From: Chromatiales bacterium
GTDB taxonomy: Bacteria; Pseudomonadota; Gammaproteobacteria; Thiohalomonadales; Thiohalomonadaceae
Direction: 5' to 3'
NCBI GenBank assembly: GCA_003251535.1
Contig: QKFD01000122.1
Location: 62,001-126,000 of the forward strand
DNA length: 64,000 bases
The position numbers and the translations under genes are program-made. The notes under the pieces were generated by a model. The model was not told where the DNA came from. It did not search any database and saw only the letters and a list, made by a program, of their open reading frames with translations. Of this stretch, positions 10,237 to 51,146 are shown in pieces (position 1 is the first letter of the stretch; every line of letters begins with the position of its first letter).

Positions 10237-10242
10237 CCGCGT

Positions 10243-10311: not shown

Positions 10312-11211
10312 ATGAAGAAGAAAGCGCTTTCTCTGGCCATCGGCGCCGGTCTGCTTGCTACCAGCATGGCTGCATCTGCCGAGCCGCTGCTGTTCCCCTA
10401 TTTCATCTCCGGCAGCGGTGAGTACACCTTCATCACTCTGCGTGCTGACGATGCTGCAGCCAATCTGCACTACGTGTGGAGCTACGACGATCCGACCTGG
10501 GGCGAGTGCACCCACTTTGACCTCTCCGGCTCCATGTCTGCCGCTGACTTGATCCAGCAGACGGTTGTCTCCCCCAGCTCCCCGGGTGGCGTCGACATCG
10601 AAGACTTCTATGCTGACACCAACGTCTCCAACCCGCAGTACCTGCCCCTGACCGTTGGTACCGAGGGCTTCCTGCAGGTTAACCACGACGCAGCTGCTGA
10701 GGCCGAGTTCTCTGGCCAGGCCATCGTGGTTGACGTGAATGCCGGCACCGTGTCCGCCTATCGTGGTCTGAACAACATCGCTAGCACCGCTGAGGGCGAT
10801 TTCAGCTCTATCTTCGTGTCCGCGATGTCCAACGACTACACCTGGTACCCGACCGACCTCGTCGATACCTCCTGGTTCGTCCTGGCCACCGGTACCAACA
10901 TGCACCTGGGCGGCGGCTGGTTCGGTGAGCTGGACCTGTACAACGGCTTCGACGGTATCTACGACCGTGACGAGCGTTTCGCTTCTGGCTCCATCGTGAA
11001 CAACGTTGTGTGCTACCGCACCCTGACCCTGGCTGACATGCTGACCACCGCTCAGATGGTGCATGCTCAGAACGGCGGCTGGATGTGGAAGGTCAACGTG
11101 CCGGTTTCCGGCGGCGCCACTGGCGCTCTGGTGTACAAGTTCGAGACCACCAACGCACTTGGCACCTCCAAGACCGCTATCAGCGAAGAGAACCCGTTCC
11201 CGAACATCTAA
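10312..11211 (+). CDS. Exported protein of unknown function, probably very abundant
   Basis: 299 residues from ATG 10312 (GGAG eight bases upstream). ATG 10294 would put six extra residues before the signal peptide and lacks a ribosome site. The signal peptide ends ATSMAASA (cut after residue 23). The mature protein is acidic and Trp/Tyr/Asp-rich, opening EPLLFPYFISGSGEYTFI, with beta-like stretches and two Cys (WGECTH and NVVCYRT). Codon choice is extreme (CTG, ACC, GGT, CGT, AAC, GAC), a sign of very high expression. A surface-layer, matrix or sulfur-globule-like structural role is possible, but the family is not known to me. It is followed by a strong terminator. Confidence 0.78.
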   Translation: MKKKALSLAIGAGLLATSMAASAEPLLFPYFISGSGEYTFITLRADDAAANLHYVWSYDDPTWGECTHFDLSGSMSAADLIQQTVVSPSSPGGVDIEDFYADTNVSNPQYLPLTVGTEGFLQVNHDAAAEAEFSGQAIVVDVNAGTVSAYRGLNNIASTAEGDFSSIFVSAMSNDYTWYPTDLVDTSWFVLATGTNMHLGGGWFGELDLYNGFDGIYDRDERFASGSIVNNVVCYRTLTLADMLTTAQMVHAQNGGWMWKVNVPVSGGATGALVYKFETTNALGTSKTAISEENPFPNI

Positions 11212-11233
11212 TCGGGTAACGGTCTCATAAAGA

Positions 11234-11273
11234 GGGGGCGGGTGTCGTCAAACCGGCATCCGCCCTTCTTTTT
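11234..11273 (+). terminator. Rho-independent terminator after the exported-protein genes
   Basis: GGGCGGGTGTCG (11236-11247) pairs with CGGCATCCGCCC (11254-11265) in a 12-pair stem with two or three G-T pairs. It is followed by TTCTTTTT. This closes the highly expressed unit before the lipoprotein gene. Confidence 0.82.
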
Positions 11274-11307
11274 CATCTGCTTTCTGAAAGTCCCTCTTTC
11301 CGATCCC

Positions 11308-18077: not shown

Positions 18078-19793
18078 ATGACGAGCTGGAACGAAGCCGA
18101 TTTCATCCCCTATCAAGCGGTCCACAGCTTGGCCGAGGGTCCCGCGCTGCTCTTCGCCCCCCACCCGGATGATGAGGTGTTTGGCTGCGCCGGCGCCATC
18201 CTGCGCCACGTCGATGCAGGCGAGGCGGTGCGAGTGGTGATCCTCACCGATGGCGAGCTGTACGGTACCGAACGGCGCCAAGAGGCGGAGCGGGCCGCCG
18301 CCGAGCTGGGGTACGGTCGGCCGGAGTTTTGGGGCTATGGTGACCGCGCCCTGAACTATGGTGAACCGCTGATCCAGCGGATGCAGCAGGCCATTGAGCG
18401 CAGTCGGGCCCGTATTGTCTACGCCCCTTCGGTACATGAGATCCACCCGGACCACCGCGCTTGCGCCATGGCGGCGGTGGAGGCGGTGCGACGGGCGGGG
18501 GGCGAACGGTGGTTGGCGATGTATGAGATCGGGGTACCGCAGCCGGCCAACCGCCTGCTCGATATCAGCGATCTCGCCACCCGCAAACGGCGAGCAGTCT
18601 GCTGTTTCGATAGTCAGTTAGCGCGCCACGACTATGCCGACTTCGTGGCCGGCCTCAACCGCTATCGCGCCTACACCCTGGGGCCGGAGGTCAGCGCCGC
18701 AGAGGCCTACCACCTCATCGCCGCCCATGACCTCAGTGCCGGTTTGCAGCAGCTCTACCAATCATTGGCGCGTCGCAACAGCCGTGGTGCAGCATTTGGC
18801 GAGCGCCCCTTGGTCTCGATCATCCTCCGTAGCTGGGGGCGGGCGGGATTGGTGGAGGCGCTCGATGCGCTGGCCCTCCAGACCTGGCCGCACTGTGAGC
18901 TGGTGGTGGTGGATGGGGCGGCAGTGGGCATCACCGAGCTGACCGCCTGGGGGGGACCCTTTCCTCTGCGGGTGGTGGGCGGGGGCGGCCCACTCTCCTC
19001 GGCCCAGGCGGCCAATCTCGGGCTGGAGCAGGCGCAGGGGGAGTATCAACTGCTACTGGATCGGGAAGACCGCCTCGATCCGGACCACATCTCCGGTCTG
19101 ATGGCGCTGTTGGAGCAGACGCCGAGTAGACGGGCCGCTTACGCCGGCGTGGCGCTGGAGGAGGGGGCAGCGGAGTGCAACGGCATTCGTAACACCCCTT
19201 GGGATCCGCAGCGCCTACTCATCGAGGACCTCATACCGCTCAACGCCGTGCTGTTCCACCGTGACCTGGCGCTGGGTTGTCGCTTTGATGAGGCGTTGGG
19301 CGCGGTGGTGGAGGCATGGGATTTTTGGCTCCAGCTCGCTGCCCGTGGGGCGTTTGCCCACCGTGATCGCGTCACTGCCCGCCGCTGTCTCACCGATGCC
19401 GAACTCTCCTCCAACAGCGGGGAGGAGGGGGCACGGGGTCGGCTCTACGCCAAGTGGTTGCCGCAGCGCTCACCTGCGGAGTGGCTACGGCTGTTTGACG
19501 ACTGCCGATCTGCCCAGCGGCGTGTCGCCGACTGCGAGCAGCGCTTGGCGCAGCAGGCGGCCCAGTTTAATGCCGGGGAGGAGGCGCGGCGCGAGGCCTA
19601 CGTCGTGCGCCAGCAGGCGGAGTTGCAGGGGGAGGAGATGCAGGCGGTGGTGGCGGCCCTGCGGGAGGAGAACGCCCAATTACAGGATGAACTTAACCGG
19701 ACACAGGAGGGTCTGGAGGCGGTGCACCACTCCACCAGCTGGCGGCTTACTGCGCCGCTGCGGTGGTTGGCCCGTGGTTTGGGGCGGCGCTGA
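18078..19793 (+). CDS. PIG-L type deacetylase fused to a GT2-like domain and coiled coil
   Basis: 571 residues from ATG 18078; the frame back to 17871 is inside the GNAT gene. About 1-235 is a PIG-L/LmbE de-N-acetylase with the zinc motif HPDDE (29-33) and the second His motif HEIHPDHR (about 120-127). About 245-455 is a GT2-type fold (PLVSIILRSWGR, then AQAANLGLEQAQGEYQLLLD). Its expected metal motif reads LDREDR instead of a D-x-D, and it has EAWDFW where the paralogue has EDWDFW, so catalysis is doubtful. A coiled coil (about 475-550) ends in STSWRLTAPLRWL. It probably deacetylates a GlcNAc-type sugar intermediate. Confidence 0.82.
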   Translation: MTSWNEADFIPYQAVHSLAEGPALLFAPHPDDEVFGCAGAILRHVDAGEAVRVVILTDGELYGTERRQEAERAAAELGYGRPEFWGYGDRALNYGEPLIQRMQQAIERSRARIVYAPSVHEIHPDHRACAMAAVEAVRRAGGERWLAMYEIGVPQPANRLLDISDLATRKRRAVCCFDSQLARHDYADFVAGLNRYRAYTLGPEVSAAEAYHLIAAHDLSAGLQQLYQSLARRNSRGAAFGERPLVSIILRSWGRAGLVEALDALALQTWPHCELVVVDGAAVGITELTAWGGPFPLRVVGGGGPLSSAQAANLGLEQAQGEYQLLLDREDRLDPDHISGLMALLEQTPSRRAAYAGVALEEGAAECNGIRNTPWDPQRLLIEDLIPLNAVLFHRDLALGCRFDEALGAVVEAWDFWLQLAARGAFAHRDRVTARRCLTDAELSSNSGEEGARGRLYAKWLPQRSPAEWLRLFDDCRSAQRRVADCEQRLAQQAAQFNAGEEARREAYVVRQQAELQGEEMQAVVAALREENAQLQDELNRTQEGLEAVHHSTSWRLTAPLRWLARGLGRR

Positions 19794-19833
19794 GTCAGAC
19801 GCCACCATCGGTGCTCCACCGCGGATCACATTC

Positions 19834-22800
19834 ATGGACATATCAGGAACTTCAGAGACCGTCAGCGCTATGACCCACACCCCCCTCGTCTCTGTCATTG
19901 TGCGCACCATGGGGCGCCCGGAACTCCAGCAGGCACTCACCTCCATTGGCCAACAGGAGTGGCCGGCCGTCGAGGTGGTCCTAGTCGATGCCGCTGGCCG
20001 TGGGGAGCTGCCCCAGCTCACTAGTTGCGGCCCCTTTCCGCTCCGCATCGTTGGTACCGGCGCACCACTGCCGCGGCCCCAAGCGGCCAATGTGGGGTTA
20101 GAGGCGGCCCAGGGTGAGCTGCTGATGTTCCTGGATGAAGATGACTTCATCGCCCCCGAGCACCTTGCAGGGTTGGCACGGGCGTTGATGGCCAGCAGTG
20201 CGGTGGCGGCCTATAGCGGGGTGCAGGCGGTGCGCAGCGATGGCAGCGTGGCCCCGGATGCCGCCTGTTTCAACTTCGGTTTTGATCGGCTGCGGCTGAT
20301 GTGGGGCAACTTCATCCCCATCCACGCCGTGCTGTTCCGGCGCTCGGTGGTGGAGGCGGGTTGCCGCTTCGATGCCGAACTGCCGATCTACGAAGATTGG
20401 GACTTCTGGCTCCAGGTCGTCGCGCTGGGTGAACTCCTCCACCTCCCCCAGGTGAGTGCCTTCTATCGTGCGGGGGGTAGCTCCGGCGTCGGGGGGGTGA
20501 GCTTTGACCCAGTGGCGGTGGCGGCAGGGCGGGCGCGCATCTTCGGTAAGTGGGCGCGGATCTGGTCGGGGGCGGAGCTGCTGGGGTTGATGGACTCCAT
20601 CAATCAGCAGGCGGAGCTGGACCGGCTGCACCAAGAGCTGGAGGTGCGCGGTGAGCACATCTGCCAGCGCGAGGCGCGTATTGAGTCGATCAACAGCCAC
20701 GTCCAGACCCTGCAAAACGAGTTGGCGACGGTCCACAACCACCTGGATGGGCAGACCGCCATACTCGCCCATAAAGATGAGCAGCTGGTGGCTAGGCAGC
20801 AGGAGCTGACGGCACTCCAGGGGCAGATGGCGGCCGCGGAGCAGCGCCTTGTGGAGAGCCGCTCTGCCTATGAGGCGGTCATTGCCAAGATCATGGCCTC
20901 CACCTCCTGGCGTTTGACCGCCCCGCTCCGCTGGTTGATGACACGGGGCCGCGCCAGCGGGCCGCAAGCGGCGGGCGCCTCCAGCCCGGCGTTGGGCCGG
21001 GACGTCGGTGAGGTGCTGCTGTTTGGGCTTGAACAGTTCACCCTGCGTGAGGCCCCCTTTGGTGCCAACCAGGTGCTGTTCTACTCCGGCTGGGCGGTGA
21101 CCCGCGAGGGGGGAGTGCTGCCGCGGTTGGAGCTGCGGGCCGATGGTACAGCGGTGGAGCGGATCCAAGGGAGCCGTAAGCGGCCCGACGTCTTTCACCA
21201 GTTCAGCACCGAGTTGCCCCCCGGCGGGGAGGCGGAGATCGGTTTCCAGGGCTTCGCCTATATCGAGCGAGGTATCCAGCAGGTGGCGCTGGTGGCGCCG
21301 GAGTATGGGGTGGAGTTGGCGGTTGCCACCCACCAGCCGCAACACGCCCCCTCTTCATCCCTGGGTGGGGCGCGCGGTCGCTGGTCCGGTCTACTACAGC
21401 GCGGCCTGCGTCTGGCGGCGACCGCCCGCCGCAAGGTCGGCTGGCGCGATCTCATCTCACCGCAGCGTTGGCGCTATCTCTACGGCAAGGGGCGACAGGA
21501 GTACGCCCGCCTGTTGCGCGAGGCATTGCCGGAGGAGGAGGTGGTGTTCGGGCAGCCGTTGGAGCCCTATGCCGCTTGGCGCTACCACAACCAGATCACC
21601 CCCGCCCTGCGGGCGGTGTTGGAGCAGGCGGCGGCACACTTTGACTACCGTCCCACCTTCAGCATCGTGATGCCGGTCTACAACGGTCCCGCCCGTTATC
21701 TACAGATAGCGGTGGACTCCCTGCGGGCACAGATCTGGCCCCACTGGCAGCTCTGCCTCGCCGATGACGGCTCCACCCGAGAGGAGACCCTGGCCCTACT
21801 GACGGCCCTGGAGGCGGAACAAGATCCGCGTATCTCTATCCTGCGCCGGCAGCAGAATGGCCACATCTGCCAAGCCAGCAACAGCGCCGTAGAGCTGGCC
21901 TGGGGCGAATTCTTGGTGCTGATGGATCAGGATGATGAACTGGCACCCCACGCCCTATTCGAATTGGCACGCGCCCTGAATGGGCGGCGCGAACTGGATC
22001 TCATCTATAGCGATGAAGACAAAGTGGACGAGGCGGGGCAGCACTACGACCCCCACTTCAAACCGGACTTCTCTCCGGTCCTGCTGCTCGGCTACAACTA
22101 CATCAATCACGTCACCTGTGTGCGCCGCAGCCTATTTGAGCAGGTGGGGCGCTTCCGCGAGGGTTTTGAGGGGGCGCAGGACTACGATCTGCTGCTGCGG
22201 ATCAGTGAGCAGACCGATCGCATCCACCACATCCCCAAGGTGCTCTACCACTGGCGCTCCCTGCCGGAGTCCACGGCCTCGGCTGCCAGTGCCAAGCCCA
22301 TTGTCCGTGACTCCGCCATCCGTGCCCTGCGCGAACACCTGACGCGGCGCGGCATCACGGCGACCCCCTACCAGCCACAGTTCGCCGTGCGCCACCACCT
22401 GCCCATTGAGCAGCTGGATGGGCTGACCGAGGGGCCCTCCGTGGCCATCCTCATCCCCGCTCGCAATCAAGCACCGGTGACCCGTCGTTGCGTCGAGTCC
22501 ATTCGCAGCAAGACCCGCTATCGCAACTACCAGCTGGTGCTCATCGATAACGACTCCGATGAGCGGGAGGCGCTCGTCTGGTACCAGGCGGAGGCGGCGG
22601 CGGGGACTCAGGTGCTCCAGATCGCCAGCCCTGGGGGTCGATTCTCTTTTAGCTACCTCAACAACCGGGCCGCCGAGCAGGTGACGGCCGACTACCTATT
22701 GCTGCTCAACAACGACACCGAGGTGGTCGATGGGGAGTGGTTGGGGCGCCTGCTGCGCTATCTCCTCCTGCCTGGGATCGGGGCGGTGGGGGCGCGGCTA

Positions 22801-24495
22801 TGTTACCCCTCGGGTGAACTCCAGCACGCTGGGGTGGTGCTGGGCCTGGGTAAGGATGGCGCCCCCGGTCACGCCTTTTATCGCCAGAGCGGCCAGGCCA
22901 TCAGCCCCTTCTTCCAGGCCGAGGTGGCGCGGGAGGTCTCGGCCGTCACGGGGGCCTGTCTGCTCACCTCGCGCGAGCTTTACCTCTCCTTGGGTGGGTT
23001 TGATGAGAGCGATTTCCCCGTCTCACTCAACGATGTTGACTACTGTCTGCGCCTGCGCAAACAGGGCCTGCGCACCCTCTACGTGGGCGATGCGGAGCTG
23101 ATCCACTACGAGAGCCTATCGCGGGCGCGGGAGGATGACCCGGCCGAGCTGGCCCGTTTCCACCGCCGTCACGGTGGGGTCGAGGAGCCCTGGTACAACA
23201 TCAATCTGGCGAAGGATGGCAGCTATCTGCCTGCTGTGCGCTGTGGCCTGGATTACCTCCCTTATCTAGGTCGGCCACCGCGGGTGGTCTTCTACAGCCA
23301 CAACCTCAACCATGAGGGGGCCCCCAAGGTGGTACTGTCGGTGGCGACCACGCTCCATGCCATGGGGGTCATCCAGGCCCATGTGGTGGCGCCGATGGCG
23401 GGGCCCGCCCAAGCGGAGTTGCAGCGGTTGGGCGTGGGCTGCACGGTGCTGCCCCCCCGGGGTACCGACAATCTGCTGAAGGGGTGGGCCCACGAGGCCG
23501 ACTATCGCCAGACACTGGCTGAGTTGCGGCAGTGGCTGGCGGCAGAGCGCCCTGATGTGGTGGTCGCCAATGTGCTGAACAGCTACTTCGCCGTCAATGT
23601 GGCCCATGAGCTGGGGATCCCCGCACTGTTCATCATCCACGAGAGCTACGACCGTGGACAGATGGTGCGCCACCTGCCGCCCTTTGCCATCGATGAGTGC
23701 GAGCAGGCGTTTGTGCGGGCGGGGCGCGTAGTGTTTGTCTCCGATCAGACGCGCCAGATGTACCGCCGTTACGATGTACTGGGTAACGCGACGGTGATCT
23801 ATAACGGCCTGGCGCCGGAGTTTAGCGCCCGCATCGATCCCAACACCCGGGCCGCTGCCCGGGCTGCGTTGGCGATCCAGGCGGAGCGCCCAGTGTTGCT
23901 GACCATCGGTACCATCTGTGAACGCAAGGATCAGGAGACCCTGGTGCGGGCGGTGGCGCAGATCGCCCAGCGGCGCAAGGATATCTTGGCGCTCATCGTC
24001 GGTGCCCGTCGCCAGGATCCCTATGTCCGCTTCCTGGAGGGGCTCATCGAGCGGCTGGGGGTGGCGGAGCAGGTGCGTCTGGTGGAGGAGACCGCCGAGG
24101 TGGAGCGCTACTACGCCAGTGCCGATCTGTTTGTCTTCACCTCCCTCAACGAATCCTATTCGCTGACTGTACTGGAGGCGATGGCCTGGGGGCTGCCCAT
24201 TGTCACCACCCCCGTCTGCGGTGTGCGCGAGCAGGTGCGTTTCAAGGTCAATGCCGAAGAGGTGCCGTTCCGTGACCCGCAACTCCTGGCCCAGACGATC
24301 AATGGACTCCTGGCACAACCGGAGCGGCAGGCCGCGCTGGGGGCGGCATCGCGGGCGATGATGGACTATATGCCCGATCACCAGGCGATGATCGGACACT
24401 ACCAGGCGCTGCTCGCCGAGGTCTGGGCGCAGGGGGCAGCTACCTGTGACTTTAGCCAGGGAGGCATAATAGAAAACGGCACGCTAACAGAGTGA
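19834..24495 (+). CDS. Giant multidomain glycosyltransferase: GT2-GT2-GT2-GT4
   Basis: 1553 residues from ATG 19834 (ATG 19870 is possible). GT2 number 1 is at about 16-240 (SVIVRTMGR, FLDEDDF, YEDWDFW). A coiled coil (about 252-356) ends in STSWRLTAPLRWL. A beta domain follows (about 395-504). GT2 number 2 is at about 607-825 (SIVMPVYNG, ADDGST, MDQDDE, GAQDYDLLLR). GT2 number 3 is at about 868-1100 (ILIPARNQ, LNNDTEVV, NDVDYCLRL). The GT4 domain is at about 1150-1535 (VVFYSHNLNHEGAPKVV, SLNESYSLTVLEAMAWG). All four show intact catalytic motifs. It could build several linkages of one repeat unit on one scaffold. It overlaps no neighbour. The frame upstream of 19834 is antisense-like shadow in another gene. 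Confidence 0.88.
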   Translation: MDISGTSETVSAMTHTPLVSVIVRTMGRPELQQALTSIGQQEWPAVEVVLVDAAGRGELPQLTSCGPFPLRIVGTGAPLPRPQAANVGLEAAQGELLMFLDEDDFIAPEHLAGLARALMASSAVAAYSGVQAVRSDGSVAPDAACFNFGFDRLRLMWGNFIPIHAVLFRRSVVEAGCRFDAELPIYEDWDFWLQVVALGELLHLPQVSAFYRAGGSSGVGGVSFDPVAVAAGRARIFGKWARIWSGAELLGLMDSINQQAELDRLHQELEVRGEHICQREARIESINSHVQTLQNELATVHNHLDGQTAILAHKDEQLVARQQELTALQGQMAAAEQRLVESRSAYEAVIAKIMASTSWRLTAPLRWLMTRGRASGPQAAGASSPALGRDVGEVLLFGLEQFTLREAPFGANQVLFYSGWAVTREGGVLPRLELRADGTAVERIQGSRKRPDVFHQFSTELPPGGEAEIGFQGFAYIERGIQQVALVAPEYGVELAVATHQPQHAPSSSLGGARGRWSGLLQRGLRLAATARRKVGWRDLISPQRWRYLYGKGRQEYARLLREALPEEEVVFGQPLEPYAAWRYHNQITPALRAVLEQAAAHFDYRPTFSIVMPVYNGPARYLQIAVDSLRAQIWPHWQLCLADDGSTREETLALLTALEAEQDPRISILRRQQNGHICQASNSAVELAWGEFLVLMDQDDELAPHALFELARALNGRRELDLIYSDEDKVDEAGQHYDPHFKPDFSPVLLLGYNYINHVTCVRRSLFEQVGRFREGFEGAQDYDLLLRISEQTDRIHHIPKVLYHWRSLPESTASAASAKPIVRDSAIRALREHLTRRGITATPYQPQFAVRHHLPIEQLDGLTEGPSVAILIPARNQAPVTRRCVESIRSKTRYRNYQLVLIDNDSDEREALVWYQAEAAAGTQVLQIASPGGRFSFSYLNNRAAEQVTADYLLLLNNDTEVVDGEWLGRLLRYLLLPGIGAVGARLCYPSGELQHAGVVLGLGKDGAPGHAFYRQSGQAISPFFQAEVAREVSAVTGACLLTSRELYLSLGGFDESDFPVSLNDVDYCLRLRKQGLRTLYVGDAELIHYESLSRAREDDPAELARFHRRHGGVEEPWYNINLAKDGSYLPAVRCGLDYLPYLGRPPRVVFYSHNLNHEGAPKVVLSVATTLHAMGVIQAHVVAPMAGPAQAELQRLGVGCTVLPPRGTDNLLKGWAHEADYRQTLAELRQWLAAERPDVVVANVLNSYFAVNVAHELGIPALFIIHESYDRGQMVRHLPPFAIDECEQAFVRAGRVVFVSDQTRQMYRRYDVLGNATVIYNGLAPEFSARIDPNTRAAARAALAIQAERPVLLTIGTICERKDQETLVRAVAQIAQRRKDILALIVGARRQDPYVRFLEGLIERLGVAEQVRLVEETAEVERYYASADLFVFTSLNESYSLTVLEAMAWGLPIVTTPVCGVREQVRFKVNAEEVPFRDPQLLAQTINGLLAQPERQAALGAASRAMMDYMPDHQAMIGHYQALLAEVWAQGAATCDFSQGGIIENGTLTE

Positions 24496-25700: not shown

Positions 25701-28700
25701 TTGTCTTGCCAATCCATTACTGCCGCCCAACTACCCATTGGCCCCTGGCTGATCTTCTGCCGTGATGGCCGCGACTTAGCCGCCATTGCCGGTACCGTTG
25801 CCCTCGCTAGACGGGTGGATGTGGCCGTAGCCATCGTCTTTACCGGGGTTGCCGCGGAGTCCCCCCCCAGCTTTCGCCCAGAGATCCGGCGCATCTTCTT
25901 GGGGGGCGAGGCGGCCGGGCCGGGGGTAGCGCTGGCTCTTGGGGGGCGGCTTGCCACGCTGCTGCGGGAGATTGGACCGGCCATGGTGCTGCTGCCCGCC
26001 CCCCTCGACCCTGCCACCGCCCCATTCACTGGCGATGTGGAGCGCCTGCTGGCGGCGGAGGGGTGGTGCGGCCCTGGTTGGTACTACCCGCTGCCCGCCA
26101 GTGCAGCGGCCAACCGTGCCGTTGCCATCGCCGCGGTGTTGGAGCAGAAGCGCGCCGCCTACAGGGATGCCGATCTCCCACTTCCCCCCGAGGCGGTGTT
26201 GGGGGGTGACGAGCTGTTTTTAGCGGTGGAGCGGCTCGCCCCGCTGGCCGGGGTCAGCGCGCTGGCACACGCCCTCGTGGCCCAGGACCGCCAACCGCTC
26301 CAGGGGGAGATGCCGCAGGTCTCGGTGCTGGTACGTACCCGGGATCGGCCCCAGCTGCTGGCCGAGGCGCTGCTCAGCCTGACACTCCAGACCTATCCCG
26401 CCCTCCAGGTGGTGGTGGTCAACGATGGCGGGCGCTCTGTGGCCGAGGTGGTGGCCCCGTTCCGCCCGCAGCTCGCCATTGATCTCATCGAGCTGCCGCA
26501 GAGCCGCGGTCGCTCTGCCGCGGCCAATGTCGGTATCGCGGCCGCTACCGGCGTCTGGTTGGCGCTACTGGATGATGACGACATCTATCTGCCGGAGGGG
26601 ATCGCCAGCCTGGTCGCCGCTGTGGGTAGTGGCAGCAACGTCTACTACGGCCAGGTGGAGGCCTACCTCTACGAGGGCGATGGGCGCCGCTGGCTGCGCA
26701 CCTTTGGCGGTGACCACCACCCCGATCTGATGCTGTTTGAGAATCAGCTCCCCATCATCGGCTGTCTGCTACCGCTCCATCAGGTGCGCCAAGTGGGGGG
26801 GATCGATGAGTCGCTGGAGGTGTTCGAGGATTGGGACCTGTTTCTGCGCTTGGGTGCCGTGTGCCGCTTTGTCAGTGTTGACCGGGTGGTCGCGGAGTAT
26901 CGCAGCTACGGTGACAGCTTCATCACCGGGAAGGGTGGGGAGCAGCTCCAGGCGCGGGGCTTGGCGGAGATCTACCAGCGTCACCACGCCCTCCTACAAC
27001 CGCAGCGCCTGGCGGCAATGCAGTTGGCGGTGAAGCGGGAGCTGCTGCCGGGGATGGTGGAGCGGGAGTGTCAGGCACTGCTGGTGGCGGAGCGCGAGCA
27101 ACTGCAAGCGCGCTACGCCGAGCGCTTGGCCAGTCAAGAGCAGGAGTTCTGGACGCTCCACAACGCGGAGGTGGCGCGCCTCAACCAGAAGCTGGTGCAG
27201 GTGCGCGATAGCCTCCTGCTGCGTCGGGATCAGCTGTTCATCTCCATCATCATCGTCAACTACAACGGGCGCCACCACCTGGAAAAATGCCTGCCCGCGG
27301 TGTTTACCACCACCGGGCTGGAGTATGAGGTGATCCTGGTGGATAACGGCTCCGCCGATGATAGCGTCGCCTGGGTGGAGGAGCAGTTTCCCCAGGTGCG
27401 CCTCATCGCCACCGGTGCCAACCTCGGGTTTGGGCGTGCCAACTTGGTGGGGGCCCACGCGGCCCGCGGCGGCTTCATCGCCCTGCTCAACAGCGACACC
27501 GTGGTGACCCCGGAGTGGCTGCTCCACCTCGCCACGCCGCTACTGGTGGATCCCGCCATCGGCACCACCTGCTCCCAGCTGCGGCTAATGGCGCGCCCCG
27601 AGTTGTTGAACGCCCGGGGCGGTGGCATGTCCCGTCTAGGCTTCGGCTATGACATCGATTTCGGTGCCCCCTATGAACCGGAGCTGGCGGCGGGGGAGCC
27701 GGTCGATGTGCTATTTCCCTCTGGGGCGGCGATGCTGCTGCGCAAGCAGGAGTTTCTGGATATCGGCGCCTTTGACCCCGCCTTTTTCATGTACCACGAG
27801 GATGTGGATCTCGGCTGGCGATACTGGCTGTTGGGGCGGCGGGTGGTCATGTGCCCCAACTCCATCGTCTTCCACGCCTTTGGCGGGACCACTGCCAGTC
27901 AACAGGGGAGCGGTTTCCGTGATTGGATGGGCAATCGCCACAACCTGCGCACCCTGCTCAAACACTACGAGCGCCCCGCTGCGCTGCGGGCCGCGGCCCG
28001 CCTAATCGGGTTGTGGCTGCGTACCGGCCAGCTCCGTCTGGCCCTCCATGCCCTCAGTTGGAATGTGATCCACATCCGCGGCACGCTGCGCGAGCGGCGT
28101 CGGCTCCAGCGCCTGCGCCGCCTCTCCGATGCCGAGATCGCCGCGCGCGGTCTCATTCCAGAGGTGCCACCACCGACCCCAGAGATCCCCGCGGCGCCGC
28201 TGGAGCAGGCCTTCGGGCAGCTGCTGCCACTGCCGGATCTCTATCCAGGCCGGGTCTCGGCCTCCAGCCGGCTCGGGATCGGCTGGTACCCGGTGGAGGC
28301 GGTGGAGGGGGAGCGGGTGCGTGCCAGTTGCGCCCTGGCGACCTTGATGATGCGGGTGGCCCCCGGCAGCCGTGGAGAGCTGCGCTTGAGTCTGCACCTG
28401 CCGCCGCAGCTGCGGGCAGAACACCCCATCACCCTGCTTTGCAACGGCGAGTCCCACTCCTTCCATCTGGCGCCAGAGCCGTTCTGGAGCAGCCACCAGC
28501 TGCCGGTGGTGGCCGACGAACAGGGGGCCCTGGCACTCACGCTGCGCGCTAAACCCTGGATACCGCAGCAGCTGTTTGGCAATGGCGATCTGCGGAAGAT
28601 AGGTGTTCTCGTCAAGGAGCTGCACTTCCTGCCAGAGGCGTCGCCGCCGCCCTATCAGCCGACCCAGGTCTCGGTGCTCATCACCACCTTCAACCGCTGG

Positions 28701-29579
28701 CCGGTCCTGGCGGTCACCCTGGAGGCGCTGTTACAGCAGAGCTGGCGTGACTACGAGGTGGTGGTGGTGGATGACGGCTCCACCGATGGCACATGGGAGC
28801 ACTTGACCGCCTGGCAGGCGGCGCAGGGGGGCAATATGAGGCTCAAGACCCTGCGGCAGGAGAATACGGGGCAGGGGATCGCCCGTAACCACGGCCTTAC
28901 CTTGGCCGAGGGGGAGTTGGTGCTGTTTTTGGGGGATGACATCATCCCCGAGGCCGATCTCATCGCCCGCCATGTGGCCCGCCATCGGGAGCTGGGGGGA
29001 CCCTGTGCCGTGGTGGGCTATACCCGCTGGGACCAGGCAGGGATGGAGGTGACCCCCTTACTGGAGCATGTCAACGAGCAGGGACAGCAGTTTGGCTACG
29101 CCCATATGGTGGATGGCAGCGATGTCCCTTACACCTGCTTCTACACCTCCAACGTCTCACTGCCGCGCGCCATCCTCGGGCATGAGCCGTTTGATCCGCA
29201 GTTCCGCACCTATGGTTGGGAGGATGTGGAGGTGGGTTATCGCCTCAGCCGACAGGGGTTACGCATCGTCTACTGCCGCGGGGCGCGGGCCCACCACCGC
29301 CACCCCATGGGGCTGCGGGATTTCTTTGAGCGACAGATCAAGGTGGGTGCCTCCATCACCACCCTCTACGATCTCCACCCCCAATTGATGGGTGACCAGC
29401 CCATCATGCCGCCCGGTCGCCCCCCTCGCTGGTGGCCGATGGCCCGCGTTGCGATACCGCCGTTACTGCCGCTACTGGTCGCCCTCGATCAGCGGCGGGT
29501 GCGACTGCCAGGGCGGATCTATGACCTGGTGCTGGCGGTAGGCTTCTGGCTGGGGCGCCGCCAAAAAGGTGGGAGGTGA
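25701..29579 (+). CDS. Giant glycosyltransferase: degenerate PIG-L domain plus three GT2 domains
   Basis: 1292 residues from TTG 25701. An in-frame stop at 25680 leaves few choices, so the start is the weak point. Residues 1-200 align with the PIG-L part of the 18078 protein, but HPDDE is RDGRD here and the second His motif is gone, so this domain looks dead. GT2 number 1 is at about 206-414 (VLVRTRDRPQ, LLDDDDIYL, EDWDLFLR). A coiled region follows (434-510). GT2 number 2 is at about 514-770 (IIIVNYNGR, DNGSADD, LLNSDTVV, HEDVDLGWR). A beta domain is at about 834-980. GT2 number 3 is at about 989-1235 (VLITTFNRW, DDGSTDG, FLGDDI, GWEDVEVGYRL). Confidence 0.85.
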   Translation: MSCQSITAAQLPIGPWLIFCRDGRDLAAIAGTVALARRVDVAVAIVFTGVAAESPPSFRPEIRRIFLGGEAAGPGVALALGGRLATLLREIGPAMVLLPAPLDPATAPFTGDVERLLAAEGWCGPGWYYPLPASAAANRAVAIAAVLEQKRAAYRDADLPLPPEAVLGGDELFLAVERLAPLAGVSALAHALVAQDRQPLQGEMPQVSVLVRTRDRPQLLAEALLSLTLQTYPALQVVVVNDGGRSVAEVVAPFRPQLAIDLIELPQSRGRSAAANVGIAAATGVWLALLDDDDIYLPEGIASLVAAVGSGSNVYYGQVEAYLYEGDGRRWLRTFGGDHHPDLMLFENQLPIIGCLLPLHQVRQVGGIDESLEVFEDWDLFLRLGAVCRFVSVDRVVAEYRSYGDSFITGKGGEQLQARGLAEIYQRHHALLQPQRLAAMQLAVKRELLPGMVERECQALLVAEREQLQARYAERLASQEQEFWTLHNAEVARLNQKLVQVRDSLLLRRDQLFISIIIVNYNGRHHLEKCLPAVFTTTGLEYEVILVDNGSADDSVAWVEEQFPQVRLIATGANLGFGRANLVGAHAARGGFIALLNSDTVVTPEWLLHLATPLLVDPAIGTTCSQLRLMARPELLNARGGGMSRLGFGYDIDFGAPYEPELAAGEPVDVLFPSGAAMLLRKQEFLDIGAFDPAFFMYHEDVDLGWRYWLLGRRVVMCPNSIVFHAFGGTTASQQGSGFRDWMGNRHNLRTLLKHYERPAALRAAARLIGLWLRTGQLRLALHALSWNVIHIRGTLRERRRLQRLRRLSDAEIAARGLIPEVPPPTPEIPAAPLEQAFGQLLPLPDLYPGRVSASSRLGIGWYPVEAVEGERVRASCALATLMMRVAPGSRGELRLSLHLPPQLRAEHPITLLCNGESHSFHLAPEPFWSSHQLPVVADEQGALALTLRAKPWIPQQLFGNGDLRKIGVLVKELHFLPEASPPPYQPTQVSVLITTFNRWPVLAVTLEALLQQSWRDYEVVVVDDGSTDGTWEHLTAWQAAQGGNMRLKTLRQENTGQGIARNHGLTLAEGELVLFLGDDIIPEADLIARHVARHRELGGPCAVVGYTRWDQAGMEVTPLLEHVNEQGQQFGYAHMVDGSDVPYTCFYTSNVSLPRAILGHEPFDPQFRTYGWEDVEVGYRLSRQGLRIVYCRGARAHHRHPMGLRDFFERQIKVGASITTLYDLHPQLMGDQPIMPPGRPPRWWPMARVAIPPLLPLLVALDQRRVRLPGRIYDLVLAVGFWLGRRQKGGR

Positions 29580-38647: not shown

Positions 38648-39970
38648 ATGAAGCAGACGAGTGGGTTGTTCGCGCTCTTGGTGCGTAGCTTACTGGGCAC
38701 GGCATCGACCCGTTTAATCGCCTTGCTCATCGGTTTAGTCAATGCGGTTCTCTTGACGCGGGTCCTCGGTGCCGATGGTTATGGGATCTACGCCTACGCC
38801 ATTGCGCTGCTCTCTCTTATCCTGCTCCCCGTCGAGTATGGCGTCGGGACCGTTGTGGTGCGGGAGGTGGCCACGTGTCAGGCACAACGTGCTTGGCAGC
38901 GCTGTCTCCTCATGTTGCGCCAATCGGTATTTTGGGTGTTGGGGTATGCCGCTCTATTGGCCGTGGTGGCCATTGCGCTGTTTGGCGAGTATGCACATCG
39001 GGGCGAACCCATCGGTTGGGCGAGCGCCCTGCTGATCCTCTCAGGGGCCTGGTTGACACTGCGGTCAGCGGTGTTGCGGGGGCTGCATCGCGTGGTGGCG
39101 AGTCAGACCCTAGATCTGCTCTTTCGGCCGACCGCCGTAGGGGTGGGCGCTGCCCTGGTTATCCTCTTGGGGCTACAGGAGATCTCGGCAACGGATATGT
39201 TGCTGGCCTACGCCACCGGCGGCCTACTGGCCATCGGGGTGGCCGAGTTTCTGCTGCGCACGGGGGGGCCTATCGGCCAAGCAGAGAGCGCGTCTGAGGC
39301 AGGGGCGCCACGCCCCCAATGGTTTCGATCGATCGGCCCGCTTGCGGCCATTGGTGCCCTCCAGGTGTTGAACGCCCAGGCGGATCTACTGCTCTTGGGC
39401 TGGTTTCGTCCGGTGGAGGAGGTGGGGATCTACCGCGTTGCCCTGCAAGGGGCCAACCTCGTCCTGTTTGCGGCGTCCGCCATCAGCATCGTCGTTGCCC
39501 CTACGCTGGCTAAACTGCACTCCCTAGGGGATGGGGCAGGGTTGCGGCGCATTGGTATGTTGAGCTCGACCGGAGGCTTTCTGGTCGGGTTACCGGTGGT
39601 GGGGCTGTTTTGGATCTGGGGTGACCTGTTGCTGGAGAGGCTCTTTGGCCATGCCTTTGGCGGCGGTGCCCTACCGCTGGCTATCTTGTGTGGGGCCAAG
39701 TTGATTCAGGCATCGGTGGGCGTCGCGGGGCACTTCTTGATCATCAACCATGCGGAAAAGGCGCTCCTGTTGGCGACCGGGAGCGGGGCAGTGGTCACCC
39801 TGACGGCCAACCTGATGCTCATCCCAAGCCATGGCATGGTGGGCGCGGCGATGGCGACAGCACTGGGGACGGCGACTTGGACACTGTTGCTAGTCCATCG
39901 CGTCTATCGCACCTACCGGATTGTGAGTCTGCCTTTTTGGGGCCTCGCCGCGCTCAGGAGGGCGTCATAG
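38648..39970 (+). CDS. Wzx-type oligosaccharide flippase (first copy)
   Basis: 440 residues, about 12 membrane helices, no soluble domain. It opens with LLGTASTRLIALLIGLVNAVLLTRVLGADGYG (given as the typical polysaccharide-synthesis signature: helix 1 then LGxxGYG) and has GAIVLMGPIL-like Gly/Pro-rich helices later. MOP superfamily. It would flip undecaprenyl-diphosphate repeat units across the inner membrane. A 143-base gap before it shows no clear promoter. The radical SAM fusion starts 14 bases after the stop. Confidence 0.88.
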   Translation: MKQTSGLFALLVRSLLGTASTRLIALLIGLVNAVLLTRVLGADGYGIYAYAIALLSLILLPVEYGVGTVVVREVATCQAQRAWQRCLLMLRQSVFWVLGYAALLAVVAIALFGEYAHRGEPIGWASALLILSGAWLTLRSAVLRGLHRVVASQTLDLLFRPTAVGVGAALVILLGLQEISATDMLLAYATGGLLAIGVAEFLLRTGGPIGQAESASEAGAPRPQWFRSIGPLAAIGALQVLNAQADLLLLGWFRPVEEVGIYRVALQGANLVLFAASAISIVVAPTLAKLHSLGDGAGLRRIGMLSSTGGFLVGLPVVGLFWIWGDLLLERLFGHAFGGGALPLAILCGAKLIQASVGVAGHFLIINHAEKALLLATGSGAVVTLTANLMLIPSHGMVGAAMATALGTATWTLLLVHRVYRTYRIVSLPFWGLAALRRAS

Positions 39971-39983: not shown

Positions 39984-42374
39984 GTGGATCTCATGGCGAT
40001 AGGCGCTTGGGCTCGCCGTTGGCAGGCAAGGGCGAGCCAATTGAAATACCTGATGTATACGGGGCGCTATCCACTGGAACATCCCGTGGTGATCCAGTAC
40101 CCCATTAATGATATCTGCAACTCGCGCTGCCAGATGTGTAGCATCTGGGCGCGTGATGTCGATGACGCCATGGCCCCCGAGCGGTTGGCCCAGGCCCTCG
40201 ACTCACCCCTGTTCAAACGGGTGATGGTGGTGGGCCTCAATGGGGGAGAACCCACGCTTCGGAAAGATATTGCCGATATCGCCGCGGTGTTGTTTAAGCG
40301 GCTCCCGGCCCTCCAGGTGCTGTCGGTGATCACCAATGGGTATCACGAGCAGGAGGTGATTGAACGCATCACTGCCGTGGGTCGGGTGGCCCAGGCCCAG
40401 GGGGGCCGCCTGGATCTCATGGTGTCGCTCGATGGGGTGGGGGATCTGCACGATAGGGTGCGTCGCCGGCCAGGCAACTTTGCCCATGCGTTGAATGTGA
40501 TAAGACACTTCCGCGGCCATCCACTCATTCAGTCGCTACGGGTGGGATGCACCGTCATCGCAGAGAATGTCTACGGTGTTCAGGAGTTGCTGGAGTTCTG
40601 TATTTCAGAGGGGGTCTACGTCAAGTTTCGTCTGGGGGTCCCCCACCAGCGACTCTACACCGGCGACAAAACGGGACCTTATGCCCTCACTGAGGCGGCC
40701 CGCTATCACTTTGGTGAGTTTCTGTTCGGTCTCGCCGAACACTATGAACAAGATGCGCGGCAACGCTACTTCTATCGCTCGTTAGCTGGACAGCTGTTGT
40801 GGGGGGCACCTCGACTTGCGGGCTGTGACTGGCAACATCGAGGGGTCACCATCAGCAGTCGCGGCGAACTTCTCTATTGCGCCGTCAAGAGCCCGGTGAT
40901 CGGCCAGCTGGGACGGGATGATCCGGAACAGGCCTATTTTGGGCACGAGGCCGATCTGCAAAAGCTGCTGGCGGAGCAGTGTGCCTCGTGTCGGCATGAC
41001 TATCTGGGGGTGTTGCCCAGAGGGGCCGCTATCAAGCAACAGCTCCAGCGCTGGATGCCCATCAAGGCGGATTCAGGTTGGGGGCGTTCTGTTCTACCCC
41101 TCCTCAAGGCAGGTAAGCGCCATCTCACCCAGATCGGACTCCGTTCACGCCTACGCCAGCGGGTGGTACAGGCGAGCGCGCAGCCGCAGCCGTGGCCGCA
41201 AGTGGGGGAGACGGGGGCCTACAAGGTGATTATCTGTGGTTGGTATGGTACGGAGACCTTGGGTGATAAGGCGATCTTGGCGGGGGTCATCGAGGCCCTG
41301 AGAGAGGCGTTGCCGGCGACCACCCTGGATGTGCGAGTGGCCTCCCTCTTTCCCTATGTGACCGAGCAGACCGTGCAGCAGATGGCCTCTTTGGCCGGGG
41401 TGGGTGTCATCTCGCTGGAGACGGCGGCCCACTGGATCCATGGGGCTGATCTGCTGCTGTTGGGTGGGGGGCCGTTGATGGCGGTGGATGAGATCGCCTC
41501 TATGGAGGGGCTCTTTACTGTGGCCAGGCGTTGTGGCGTTCGCACCGTGGTGGCGGGGTGTGGTATCGGTCCTCTAGGGCGCGGCTGGCACCGCCATTCG
41601 GTCCGCTCACTGTTGGCGATGGCGGACCAGATCATTGTCCGCGATCCCCCTTCTGCGGCGTTGGCCCAGTCACTACTGGCCGCACCTTCCCCCCCCAGCG
41701 TGACCGAGGATCCCGCCTTCACCTGGTTGGCGCGTCAGGCGGCGGTGGTGCCTGGGGGAGCGGTGGCCGCAGGGCCTACGCTGGTGTTGGGGTTGCGGGA
41801 GTTTCCCTATCAGCAATATGCCGAAACCCTCTCGCACACCGCCTGTCTTGCGATCAAGCAGCGCTATGAGCAGGTGATCGGCCAGCTGCTGGAGCAGTTA
41901 GTTGAGCGTTATCCCACCCTGAAGATCCTCCCGCTGCCGATGTGTACCAACCATTTTGGCGGCGATGATCGCTGGTTCTACAGGGGCGTGCTGCGGGAGT
42001 TGCCCCACCTGACGCCCCATTTGGATCTCACCCTCCTCGGCCCAGAACTCTCCCCGGAGCACTATCGCCAAGCCATGGGCAGTGGCAGTGCACTGCTGGC
42101 AATGCGTTTTCACTCCCTGGTGTTCGCCTTGGGCCTGGGGATCCCGGCCGTTGCCATTGACTACACCTTGGGGCGCGGCAAGGTGGCGGCCTTGGCTCAA
42201 CAATACGAGGTGCCGTGTATCTCGATTGCCGAGCTGACGCTGGAGTTTTTGCTGGCGGCCTGCATCCGCCAATTGACGCACGCTGCCGAGCGACAGGCCG
42301 CGGAGCCCCTGCGCTTTCCGACAGCGCTGAAGGCGGCGGTGACCTCAGCTAGTGTGGAGATTGCCGGCAGATGA
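39984..42374 (+). CDS. Radical SAM domain fused to a polysaccharide pyruvyltransferase
   Basis: 796 residues from GTG 39984; ATG 39993 is equally possible, and neither has a good ribosome site. About 35-290 is a radical SAM domain with CNSRCQMC (Cx3Cx2C, the iron-sulfur site) and GLNGGEPTLRKD (SAM binding). A Cys-bearing extension follows (GCDWQHRG, LLYCAVK, CASCRHD; SPASM-like). About 415-780 is a CsaB/WcaK-type pyruvyltransferase (GWYGTETLGDKAILAGVIEAL, LLLLGGGPLM, MRFHSLVFALGLGIPAVAIDY). Each half is complete. The pyruvyltransferase would add pyruvate ketal groups; the radical half's substrate is unknown. The end overlaps the next gene by ATGA. Confidence 0.86.
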   Translation: MDLMAIGAWARRWQARASQLKYLMYTGRYPLEHPVVIQYPINDICNSRCQMCSIWARDVDDAMAPERLAQALDSPLFKRVMVVGLNGGEPTLRKDIADIAAVLFKRLPALQVLSVITNGYHEQEVIERITAVGRVAQAQGGRLDLMVSLDGVGDLHDRVRRRPGNFAHALNVIRHFRGHPLIQSLRVGCTVIAENVYGVQELLEFCISEGVYVKFRLGVPHQRLYTGDKTGPYALTEAARYHFGEFLFGLAEHYEQDARQRYFYRSLAGQLLWGAPRLAGCDWQHRGVTISSRGELLYCAVKSPVIGQLGRDDPEQAYFGHEADLQKLLAEQCASCRHDYLGVLPRGAAIKQQLQRWMPIKADSGWGRSVLPLLKAGKRHLTQIGLRSRLRQRVVQASAQPQPWPQVGETGAYKVIICGWYGTETLGDKAILAGVIEALREALPATTLDVRVASLFPYVTEQTVQQMASLAGVGVISLETAAHWIHGADLLLLGGGPLMAVDEIASMEGLFTVARRCGVRTVVAGCGIGPLGRGWHRHSVRSLLAMADQIIVRDPPSAALAQSLLAAPSPPSVTEDPAFTWLARQAAVVPGGAVAAGPTLVLGLREFPYQQYAETLSHTACLAIKQRYEQVIGQLLEQLVERYPTLKILPLPMCTNHFGGDDRWFYRGVLRELPHLTPHLDLTLLGPELSPEHYRQAMGSGSALLAMRFHSLVFALGLGIPAVAIDYTLGRGKVAALAQQYEVPCISIAELTLEFLLAACIRQLTHAAERQAAEPLRFPTALKAAVTSASVEIAGR

Positions 42375-43621
42375 GGGTCCTCCATGTTTCGTTTTCCGAT
42401 GAGCTTGGCGGGGCCGCCATTGCCGCGCGCAGGATCAACGATGCACTGCGCCGGGCCGGGGTAGATAGCCAGCTGGTTGTCTTGCGTCGCAGTAGCTCTC
42501 GGCCTGGCGTGATCGCACCCCTGACCCCCTATCGCGCGCTACGGGCGCGCTTGGCGGGGGCGTTGAGTCGGCGCTTGCTGCGGTTACAAAAGACGCCTAA
42601 CCGAACGGTCCATTCGCTCAACCTATTCGCCTCCGGTTTGGGGGCCTGGTTGAATGCCGCTGAGGCGGACATTGTTCATCTGCATTGGTTGGGCGGTGAG
42701 ACCCTCTCCCTGGCAGAGATGCGCGATCTACGCCACCCAGTGGTGTGGACGCTGCATGACATGTGGATGTTTTGCGGTGCCGAGCACTATGCAGAGGAGC
42801 AGGCCGCGGCCCGTTATCGTGTGGGATACCAGGCCAACAATCGGCCACTGGGCGGGCGGGGGATTGATTGGGATCGCTGGGTCTGGACCCAGAAGCGCAG
42901 GGTGTGGCAGCAGTTTCGACCCCACTTGGTGACCCCCAGCCACTGGTTGGCAGGGTGTGCTGCGACGGGGCTCCTCAGCGCCCAATGTCCCTGCACGGTG
43001 ATTCCCAACGGGATCGATACAGAGCGCTTTAAACCGCTCGACCGCACCTTGGCTAGAGACGCATTGGGGCTGGCAACGCAGAAGCAATATATTTTGTTTG
43101 GGGCGGCGGATAGTACGGATGATCCGCGCAAGGGCTTTACGCTGCTGCAAGCCGCTTTGAGGCGCCTATCGCAACAGTGCGCTGCGGGGCGCGTGGAGCT
43201 ATTGGTGTTTGGGGCCTGGTCGGCCCGCGTACCGCTCGACTTGGGGTTGCCCGTACACTATTTGGGCGAGCTGCGGGATGAGTACTCTTTAGCACTGCTC
43301 TACTCAGCGGCCGATCTGTTTGTTGCACCCTCTTTGCAGGATAACCTTCCCAATACGGTTGTGGAGTCGCTGGCCTGCGGTACGCCAGTGGTGGCATTTG
43401 CCATTGGCGGTATGCCCGATATGGTCAAACCGGGTCTCTGTGGGGCGCTGGCCAAACCCTTTTGTGCGGACGATTTGGCGCAGAAGATGGGCGATGTATT
43501 GAAGGTGCCCGCGGCGCTGTGGCGGGCCCAATGTCGCTCATATGCCGTGGGTGAATATAGCGAGGCGGTGGTGGCGCAGCGCTATCAGGCGCTCTATGCC
43601 CAGCTGCGGACACCGGCCTGA
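42371..43621 (+). CDS. GT4 family glycosyltransferase
   Basis: 416 residues, coupled to the radical SAM gene by ATGA. GT-B fold: VLHVSFSDELGGAAIAARRI, VWTLHDMWMFCGAEHY (the WcaC-like loop), VIPNGIDTERF, and SLQDNLPNTVVESLACGTPVVAF, where the EX7E position reads Q...E. The histidine-rich loop and Cys are as in WcaC-type transferases of colanic acid loci, so fucosyl transfer is possible. It is the last gene of this forward-strand run; the priming enzyme converges from the other side after 3 bases. Confidence 0.85.
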   Translation: MRVLHVSFSDELGGAAIAARRINDALRRAGVDSQLVVLRRSSSRPGVIAPLTPYRALRARLAGALSRRLLRLQKTPNRTVHSLNLFASGLGAWLNAAEADIVHLHWLGGETLSLAEMRDLRHPVVWTLHDMWMFCGAEHYAEEQAAARYRVGYQANNRPLGGRGIDWDRWVWTQKRRVWQQFRPHLVTPSHWLAGCAATGLLSAQCPCTVIPNGIDTERFKPLDRTLARDALGLATQKQYILFGAADSTDDPRKGFTLLQAALRRLSQQCAAGRVELLVFGAWSARVPLDLGLPVHYLGELRDEYSLALLYSAADLFVAPSLQDNLPNTVVESLACGTPVVAFAIGGMPDMVKPGLCGALAKPFCADDLAQKMGDVLKVPAALWRAQCRSYAVGEYSEAVVAQRYQALYAQLRTPA

Positions 43622-49859: not shown

Positions 49860-51146
49860 ATGAACCGCAACTTTCTCTTGCCAGCCATGCTGCTGGGGCT
49901 CGGTCTCTCCTTCCACGCCTCGGCTGTCCAGGTCTTCGCTACGGATCTCATCGTTCAAGGTAGTGAATGTGTGGGGATTGACTGCACCAGTAGCGAGAGC
50001 TTTGGTTTTGACACGATTCGTCTGAAAGAGAACAACACTCGGATCAAGTTTGACGACACCAGTAGCTCCTCAGGTTTCCCCTCCACCGACTGGCAGTTGA
50101 CCGCCAATGACTCGGCATCCGGTGGAGCCAATAAGTTCGCCATCGAGGACATCTCCTCGGGCCGAGTGCCGTTTACTGTGGAAGGGGGGGCGGTCAGCAA
50201 CTCCATCTACATCGATAGCACTGGCCGGGTTGGCTTCCGTACGACCACCCCGGTGTTGGATATCCATGTCGCCACCAGCAACACCCCTGGTCTTCGGTTG
50301 GAGCAGACCTCGGCCGGTGGTTTTACCGCTCAGACGTGGGATATCGCGGGTAATGAGGCCAACTTCTTTGTCCGTGATGTGACCAACTCTAGCCGTCTGC
50401 CGTTCCGCATCCGTCCGGGGGCACCGACGAGCAGTATCGATATCAACGCCTCTGGCAATGTCGGATTTGGTATTGCCAGCGCGCTTAAGCCCCTGCATGT
50501 CCTCCACTCCGGTGAAGCCACGCTGCGTCTCGATATCTCCAGTGCCAAGTGGGATGTGACGGCGGTATCGGGCTTGTTCTATATCACCAAGGGAGGGACC
50601 GGCGGCTCTGAGCTCTCCATTGCCGACGATGGCACGGTGACTATGGGACCGGGTGGCACCTCCAAGTTTGTCCTGGATCCCTCCGGTAACCTGACCATCC
50701 CAGGTGTGTTGACGGCCGCCAGTGTGGTCCAGACCTCTGACGTCAATAAGAAGGAGAACATCCGCGTCGTTGACGGAACTTCTGTGCTGGACCGGCTCGC
50801 CCAGCTGCGGATCGCCCGTTGGAACTTTAAGGATGATGCCGCCCATACAGACCATGTGGGCCCCATGGCGCAGGAGTTCCATGCCGCCTTTGGGTTGGGA
50901 GATGATCCCACCCGCATCTCGCCGCTGGATGTGGGCGGGATCGCCCTGGCAGGTGTGAAGGAGCTGCAACAGCAGGCCCATGACTACCATGCCGAGGTCG
51001 CCTCCCTGCAACAGCAGCTGGGCGAGAAGGACCGCCAGCTGGAGGAGATGCAGGCGCGGATGGGCCGGTTGGAGGCACTGTTGCAGCAGTTGGCCCTGCA
51101 ACAGCAGGGGAGTGATGACCACGTGGCCAGCACGACCAACTACTAA
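49860..51146 (+). CDS. Exported fibre protein with S74 (endosialidase) chaperone domain
   Basis: 428 residues. Signal peptide 1-22 (LLGLGLSFHASA). About 30-285 is a repetitive beta region with recurring ...NVGFG, RVGFR and TP.LDIHV-type turns (GRVGFRTTTPVLDIHV, GNVGFGIASALKPLHVLHS). The S74 intramolecular chaperone begins about residue 292 (TSDVNKKENIRVV), with LRIARWNFK and HVGPMAQEFHAAFGLG. The protein ends with a coiled coil (about 365-415, many QQL). S74 domains trimerise a fibre and then cut themselves off at the conserved Ser. In phages these are tail fibres. Here the signal peptide and setting point to a cell-surface fibre. Confidence 0.84.
   Translation: MNRNFLLPAMLLGLGLSFHASAVQVFATDLIVQGSECVGIDCTSSESFGFDTIRLKENNTRIKFDDTSSSSGFPSTDWQLTANDSASGGANKFAIEDISSGRVPFTVEGGAVSNSIYIDSTGRVGFRTTTPVLDIHVATSNTPGLRLEQTSAGGFTAQTWDIAGNEANFFVRDVTNSSRLPFRIRPGAPTSSIDINASGNVGFGIASALKPLHVLHSGEATLRLDISSAKWDVTAVSGLFYITKGGTGGSELSIADDGTVTMGPGGTSKFVLDPSGNLTIPGVLTAASVVQTSDVNKKENIRVVDGTSVLDRLAQLRIARWNFKDDAAHTDHVGPMAQEFHAAFGLGDDPTRISPLDVGGIALAGVKELQQQAHDYHAEVASLQQQLGEKDRQLEEMQARMGRLEALLQQLALQQQGSDDHVASTTNY

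Follow-up and report, generated by a model that had tools for sequence, protein, structure and literature searches.

The window analyzed here is a stretch of 64,000 nucleotides from a Chromatiales bacterium (contig QKFD01000122.1, positions 62,001 to 126,000). One of its genes raises the question of what a single protein could accomplish with both a radical SAM enzyme and a polysaccharide pyruvyltransferase. To our knowledge, most of the familiar cases of radical SAM enzymes that act on sugars come from antibiotic pathways, and the known enzymes that pyruvylate surface glycans have a single function. Together with its recurrent neighbor and its occurrence in several phyla, the gene hints at an alteration of surface sugars that seems not to have been reported. 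A preliminary description of this DNA had held that the combination was not known, and our search of the literature outside most subscription journals agrees with this, since it found no paper that joins "polysaccharide pyruvyl transferase" or "pyruvyltransferase" with radical SAM. The words "fusion," "fused," and "radical" occur nowhere in a 2019 review of pyruvate substitutions. An annotated yet undiscussed architecture of PF04055 plus PF04230 may be present in InterPro or UniProt.

One open reading frame encodes both halves

The fusion gene occupies positions 39984 to 42374 of the forward strand (this strand applies to all window features below) and encodes 796 amino acids, arranged as a radical SAM/Twitch half, a linker, and a polysaccharide pyruvyl transferase half. 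Its frame runs from a GTG start codon at 39984 (the ATG at 39993 is an alternative in-frame start) to a stop codon that ends at 42374, with no internal stop and no frameshift between the halves, and both Pfam domains score above their curated cut-offs, which confirms the earlier reading of one protein made of two joined enzymes. It is the sole PF04230 gene in its 4.6-Mb genome. The AlphaFold model of the full-length protein has a mean pLDDT of 78.6 and a pTM of 0.79. Based on PF04055, AlphaFold, and Foldseek, residues 34 to 340 (positions 40083 to 41003) are the radical SAM core and a Twitch auxiliary-cluster region. Residues 341 to 412 (positions 41004 to 41219) form an interdomain linker, which has a pLDDT of <50 across residues 358 to 410 of the full-length model and is variable in the family alignment. 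Residues 413 to 760 (positions 41220 to 42263) are a CsaB-like polysaccharide pyruvyl transferase domain with a GT-B-type fold, as identified by PF04230, TIGR03609, and fold matches. Thirteen further genomes, each assembled independently, have the two domains in the same order, and so chance does not account for it. An assembly chimera or a frameshift is ruled out by these 13 assemblies together with the open frame in the window.

The N-terminal half has the cysteine motif of a Twitch radical SAM enzyme

Domain searches place the N-terminal half inside the radical SAM family (PF04055, residues 40 to 181, E value of 3e-12, above the curated cut-off). The Cx3Cx2C cluster site, GGEP-type motif, and extra cysteines that had been attributed to this half can each be assigned a position. 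The predicted site of the SAM-binding [4Fe-4S] cluster is C45xxxC49xxC52 (positions 40116 to 40139), the GGEP SAM-binding motif is residues 87 to 90 (positions 40242 to 40253), and the additional cysteines are C281, C299, C333, and C336, followed by a conserved HDY (positions 40824 to 40991). The GGEP motif and all seven cysteines (C45, C49, C52, C281, C299, C333, and C336) are invariant in the alignment of the 14 fusions. The last four cysteines follow the pattern C281-x12-G294-x4-C299 ... C333-x2-C336, which matches the CX9-15GX4C-gap-CX2C start of the SPASM motif (PMC6231123). Since these first four SPASM cysteines are there and the later ones are gone, we assign the N-terminal half to the Twitch type. 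As judged from the sequence, it should have enough cysteines for full ligation of an auxiliary cluster. The fully ligated Twitch and SPASM enzymes BtrN, PqqE, and SuiB are two-electron oxidation enzymes (PMC6231123, PMC9012708) with low-potential [4Fe-4S] auxiliary clusters, in contrast to MoaA, which has an open site (PMC9012708), and the substrate of BtrN is a sugar-like cyclitol (PMC6231123, PMC9012708).

The AlphaFold model of the N-terminal half alone (pLDDT of 79.8) gives Foldseek matches to SkfB, BlsE, SuiB, and MoaA, as does the same half of the full-length model. SkfB and BlsE are the best fold matches, and SpeY, a Twitch dehydrogenase, appears weakly at rank 44. BtrN is not among the PDB sequence or fold matches listed for the N-terminal half, and no close relation to it was found. 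The cluster loops are modeled at low confidence, and we therefore draw no claim from them. In NCBIfam, several radical SAM families are the best matches of the N-terminal half, which is far below every cut-off of the named equivalogs NirJ, MoaA, BlsE, SkfB, and HpnH, and neither half of the protein reaches any equivalog cut-off. A NirJ role, suggested by BLAST matches, is ruled out by a score of 56 versus a cut-off of 515. A peptide-maturase role, suggested by the SkfB and SuiB matches, was set aside because all of the fusions that we inspected sit among polysaccharide genes.

The C-terminal half retains predicted counterparts of the CsaB PEP-site residues

PF04230 matches residues 426 to 727 with an E value of 5e-21 and 76 bits, versus a gathering score of 25.3. 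The CsaB model TIGR03609 matches this half with an E value of 8e-31 and 107.5 bits, which is below the equivalog cut-off of 213.1. Based on motif and spacing, residues R553, R605, R708, H710, and K733 (positions 41640 to 42182) are predicted PEP-site residues equivalent to CsaB R148, R207, R306, H308, and K328. Mutants of CsaB indicate that R148, R207, H308, and K328 matter for PEP binding or catalysis, and R306 is predicted to do so (PMC10435577). All five are conserved in the fusions, except that the frame of the Prochloron fusion stops short of the last three. The preliminary description had likewise assigned this half a CsaB/WcaK core. The Prochloron gene (L080:3082-5372) is broken into two overlapping frames, by either decay or sequencing error.

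On the acceptor side, Y421 corresponds to Y14 of CsaB, whereas T423 and P497 stand in place of F16 and S88, respectively, throughout the family. Based on these two replacements, the acceptor probably differs from that of CsaB, and the chemistry could differ too. The C-terminal domain might instead have lost pyruvyl transfer in favor of another donor or acceptor reaction, which would be consistent with these family-wide replacements, with the score of 107 rather than 213 bits, and with the modeled fold, which matches GT-B-type folds and resembles sugar epimerases and transferases. We consider such a loss of pyruvyl transfer improbable, given that the counterparts of all five charged CsaB PEP-site residues are kept. 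Pvg1p was not recovered by sequence and is not in the first 50 fold matches of the fusion model.

The fusion is rare and widely scattered

The search for other fusions that the preliminary description had proposed yielded 13 full fusions besides that of the window, with 28 to 44% identity. Their hosts are Cyanobacteriota, SAR324, Rhodothermota, Planctomycetota, Bdellovibrionota, and Zetaproteobacteria (at least 6 phyla), mostly represented by metagenome-assembled genomes, and 14 of 14 fusions match both PF04055 and PF04230. Among 56 genomes, mostly of the same family and class as the window, there was no other fusion. A phylum sample contributed a single fusion, from a genome of the Zetaproteobacteria (30% identity along its length), and a class sample gave L017, a relative of the C-terminal half with a different N-terminal half. 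Searching genome contigs with the single window protein retrieved nothing, but a two-row alignment retrieved the family. This GTDB scan with two aligned sequences found fusions in Mastigocoleus, Richelia, Prochloron, SAR324, Rhodothermia, two Planctomycetota, Halobacteriovoraceae, and one unplaced bacterium, along with the same Zetaproteobacteria record. Three extra fusions came from a cyanobacterial sample, in which 4 of 292 genomes are carriers; the values for the other samples are 1 of 294 (Planctomycetota), 1 of 52 (SAR324 phylum), and 1 of 192 (Bdellovibrionota), and all of these rates are upper-end impressions, as each sample was centered on a known carrier. Nine source genomes that were searched whole have one fusion each, and none was found in plasmid and phage collections. 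Overall, carriers of the fusion are few and phylogenetically dispersed.

Trees of the radical half and of the pyruvyltransferase half contain the same two clades, each with 100% support. Clade one consists of the window, SAR324, three cyanobacteria, Rhodothermia, and L075, and clade two consists of Planctomycetota, Zetaproteobacteria, Bdellovibrionota, and three other cyanobacteria. The distances of the two halves are correlated (r = 0.90, P = 0.0001, Mantel test), and their correlations with the distances of the downstream glycosyltransferase (see below) are 0.75 and 0.85. The agreement of the trees argues for one old fusion event that later spread sideways. Because cyanobacteria are in both clades and the two Pseudomonadota are in different ones, transfer between phyla would be the simplest reading.

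A GT4 glycosyltransferase accompanies the fusion in a polysaccharide setting

In all 14 loci, a same-strand GT4 glycosyltransferase gene of one related set (A5) lies downstream of the fusion. In 13 of these, it immediately follows the fusion; in the Zetaproteobacteria, one methyltransferase gene lies between. The partner gene in the window (positions 42371 to 43621, PF13692/PF00534) overlaps the fusion stop codon by 4 bases, and several of the loci, with that of the window among them, have such a start-stop overlap of 4 bases. This type of GT4 is not restricted to the fusion, as a near copy at L130:12594-13811 adjoins a second ABC transporter gene without a fusion, which suggests a local duplication, and L129 has a more distant paralogue.

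Directly upstream of the fusion is a Wzx-type flippase gene (positions 38648 to 39970, PF01943). Wzx-type flippase genes adjoin several clade-one fusions, including that of the window, an ABC exporter adjoins many clade-two fusions, and sulfotransferase genes are recurrent near fusions. Along with the flippase, the window cluster encodes an undecaprenyl-phosphate glucose phosphotransferase (WcaJ type), a WcaI-family transferase, ManC, Gmd, an Fcl-like GDP-fucose synthase-type protein, and a sulfotransferase. The glycan is likely to be an acidic polysaccharide that contains fucose and is perhaps sulfated. Between the GDP-fucose genes and the sulfotransferase gene, positions 49860 to 51146 encode a protein with a Peptidase S74 (endosialidase chaperone) domain, which is usual in phage tail fibers. 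Elsewhere in the window are a 1,744-amino-acid protein with GT2 and GT4 domains (positions 19261 to 24495) and a 1,292-amino-acid protein with three GT2 domains (positions 25701 to 29579).

Separate halves and a degenerate relative

The preliminary description had also proposed a search for adjacent stand-alone pairs, and one was found in a planctomycetal locus (L132, positions 7662 to 12859), where genes for a Twitch radical SAM protein, a stand-alone PF04230 protein, a SPASM radical SAM protein, and a GT4 lie in a row. The stand-alone Twitch protein has all seven cysteines (hhalign E value of 5.9e-47), and the PF04230 gene is 0.6 kb downstream. This independent neighborhood of separate halves supports a functional link between them. 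The row is near a sugar-phosphate transferase gene. All of the pyruvyltransferases that we found outside the fusion family are stand-alone, as had been stated for the known ones. When ~50 radical SAM loci retrieved by the genome searches were checked for a PF04230 relative (mostly in 1.5-kb flanks), only the G1102 loci were positive. Proteins of Gribaldobacteria and Falkowbacteria (L083:4667-6484, L085:9110-10984, and L086:9095-10930) combine a GT2 glycosyltransferase with radical SAM; the GT2, radical SAM, and SPASM domains were matched in L083, and the other two were assigned by sequence alone.

A gammaproteobacterial protein (L017:670-2637, also L088:2433-4400) has a pyruvyltransferase half with intact PEP-site residues and 45% identity to the corresponding half of the zetaproteobacterial fusion. 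Its N-terminal half is without any of the cluster cysteines and has no Pfam match. Comparison of this half with the radical domain gives collinear weak matches (BLAST E value of 0.002; hhalign P value of 0.011), with 1 of 60 shuffles scoring higher, and we regard it as a probable decayed (pseudo-)radical-SAM domain. No related GT4 gene is present in the 20 kb covered at L017/L088. This one relative suggests that the radical step is associated with the GT4 and that pyruvyl transfer can occur without them; the loss of both the cysteines and the GT4 fits the GT4 product as the substrate of the radical domain. Such a relative, with its related pyruvyltransferase half and every cluster cysteine gone, could also mean that in the window host the radical half has decayed or serves a structural role only. 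However, the invariance of the seven cysteines, the GGEP motif, and many other residues in the window protein and 13 others makes this very improbable.

It is possible, though we think it unlikely, that the two domains carry out unrelated steps of one pathway and are fused only for co-expression or membrane tethering, in which case the radical half would act on a nucleotide sugar or on a residue other than the pyruvylated one. The long, poorly ordered, and variable linker, the separate proteins in L132, and the pyruvyltransferase without a radical cluster in L017/L088 are all consistent with this. In contrast, the persistence of the fusion across distant phyla, the congruent trees, and the constant GT4 are more than co-expression by itself would need.

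Proposed mechanism

Based on the seven invariant cysteines, the retained CsaB PEP-site residues, the congruent trees of the halves, and the linkage to the GT4, we propose, with confidence a little short of even, that the protein is a bifunctional polysaccharide-assembly enzyme that, in a cassette with the GT4, would perform both a radical modification of the GT4-added sugar and ketal-pyruvylation. Three elements considered here (the Twitch identity of the extra cysteines, the constant downstream GT4, and the degenerate relative without a radical half) were absent from the preliminary description, which had placed the radical modification and pyruvylation in the same pathway. That proposal is borne out in part, namely as to the location of the gene in a surface-polysaccharide cluster and the retention of cofactor-site residues in both halves; beyond this, we infer activity of both domains, a sugar instead of a lipid carrier as the substrate, a shared product, and the order of the reactions.

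In the proposed mechanism, the GT4 would add a sugar to the growing lipid-linked repeat unit, and the radical SAM/Twitch domain would abstract a hydrogen from that sugar, with the fully cysteine-ligated auxiliary [4Fe-4S] cluster as the putative electron acceptor. The likeliest reaction would be a two-electron oxidation of an alcohol to a ketone, the reaction type of BtrN, with epimerization or deoxygenation as other candidates. The C-terminal domain would use PEP to form a pyruvate ketal on that sugar or on a neighboring residue, and the finished unit would be exported by Wzx or, in other hosts, by an ABC transporter. Sugar oxidation is supported by the four-cysteine Twitch motif, by the action of BtrN on a cyclitol, and by the structural match to BlsE, which acts on a sugar-nucleoside. 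It is weakened by the absence of BtrN from the best matches and by the poor prediction of function from sequence similarity in the Twitch/SPASM subfamily (PMC6231123).

The direct covalent coupling to a PEP-dependent enzyme would also fit a radical half that acts on the pyruvyl group or on PEP and thereby changes the acidic substituent, for instance to a ketal that is reduced or joined through a carbon-carbon bond. We know of no precedent for radical chemistry of this kind on a pyruvyl group or PEP, and the separate gene pair and the degenerate relative indicate that the pyruvyltransferase can be uncoupled from the radical half. We consider this reading highly doubtful.

If the bifunctional enzyme that we propose is real, it would place radical chemistry inside polysaccharide assembly, and marine and aquatic bacteria would be predicted to display an acidic sugar of a new kind on their surface. 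With slightly more reserve, we suggest that the fusion and a dedicated GT4 may form a mobile cassette, present in at least 6 phyla, that brings radical chemistry and pyruvylation to bear on a residue of a lipid-linked polysaccharide and makes an undescribed sugar. The three-part cassette is small and directly testable.

Comparison with known systems

CsaB/WcaK-type enzymes have the same domain family (PF04230, TIGR03609), the predicted PEP-site R, R, R, H, and K, and the acceptor-site Y, but they are described as single enzymes, while the window protein is fused and has T and P in place of F16 and S88. BtrN and other Twitch dehydrogenases share the CxxxCxxC and four-cysteine Twitch motifs; unlike the fusion, they are stand-alone proteins of antibiotic pathways with no close sequence relation to it found. 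SkfB, a sactipeptide maturase with a Twitch domain, is the best PDB match of the N-terminal half in both sequence and fold, but it has a peptide substrate and a leader-binding domain, and neither such a domain nor a precursor peptide was seen for the fusion. BlsE, a cytosylglucuronate decarboxylase, is one of the top matches of the N-terminal half by sequence and by structure and acts on a sugar nucleoside; in contrast to the fusion, which scores 36 versus a cut-off of 400 for TIGR04466, it has no pyruvyltransferase half. Colanic acid-type clusters resemble the window in that WcaI, WcaJ, ManC, Gmd, and Fcl, or Fcl-like counterparts, are present in both, whereas in the window genome the only PF04230 gene is the fusion itself.
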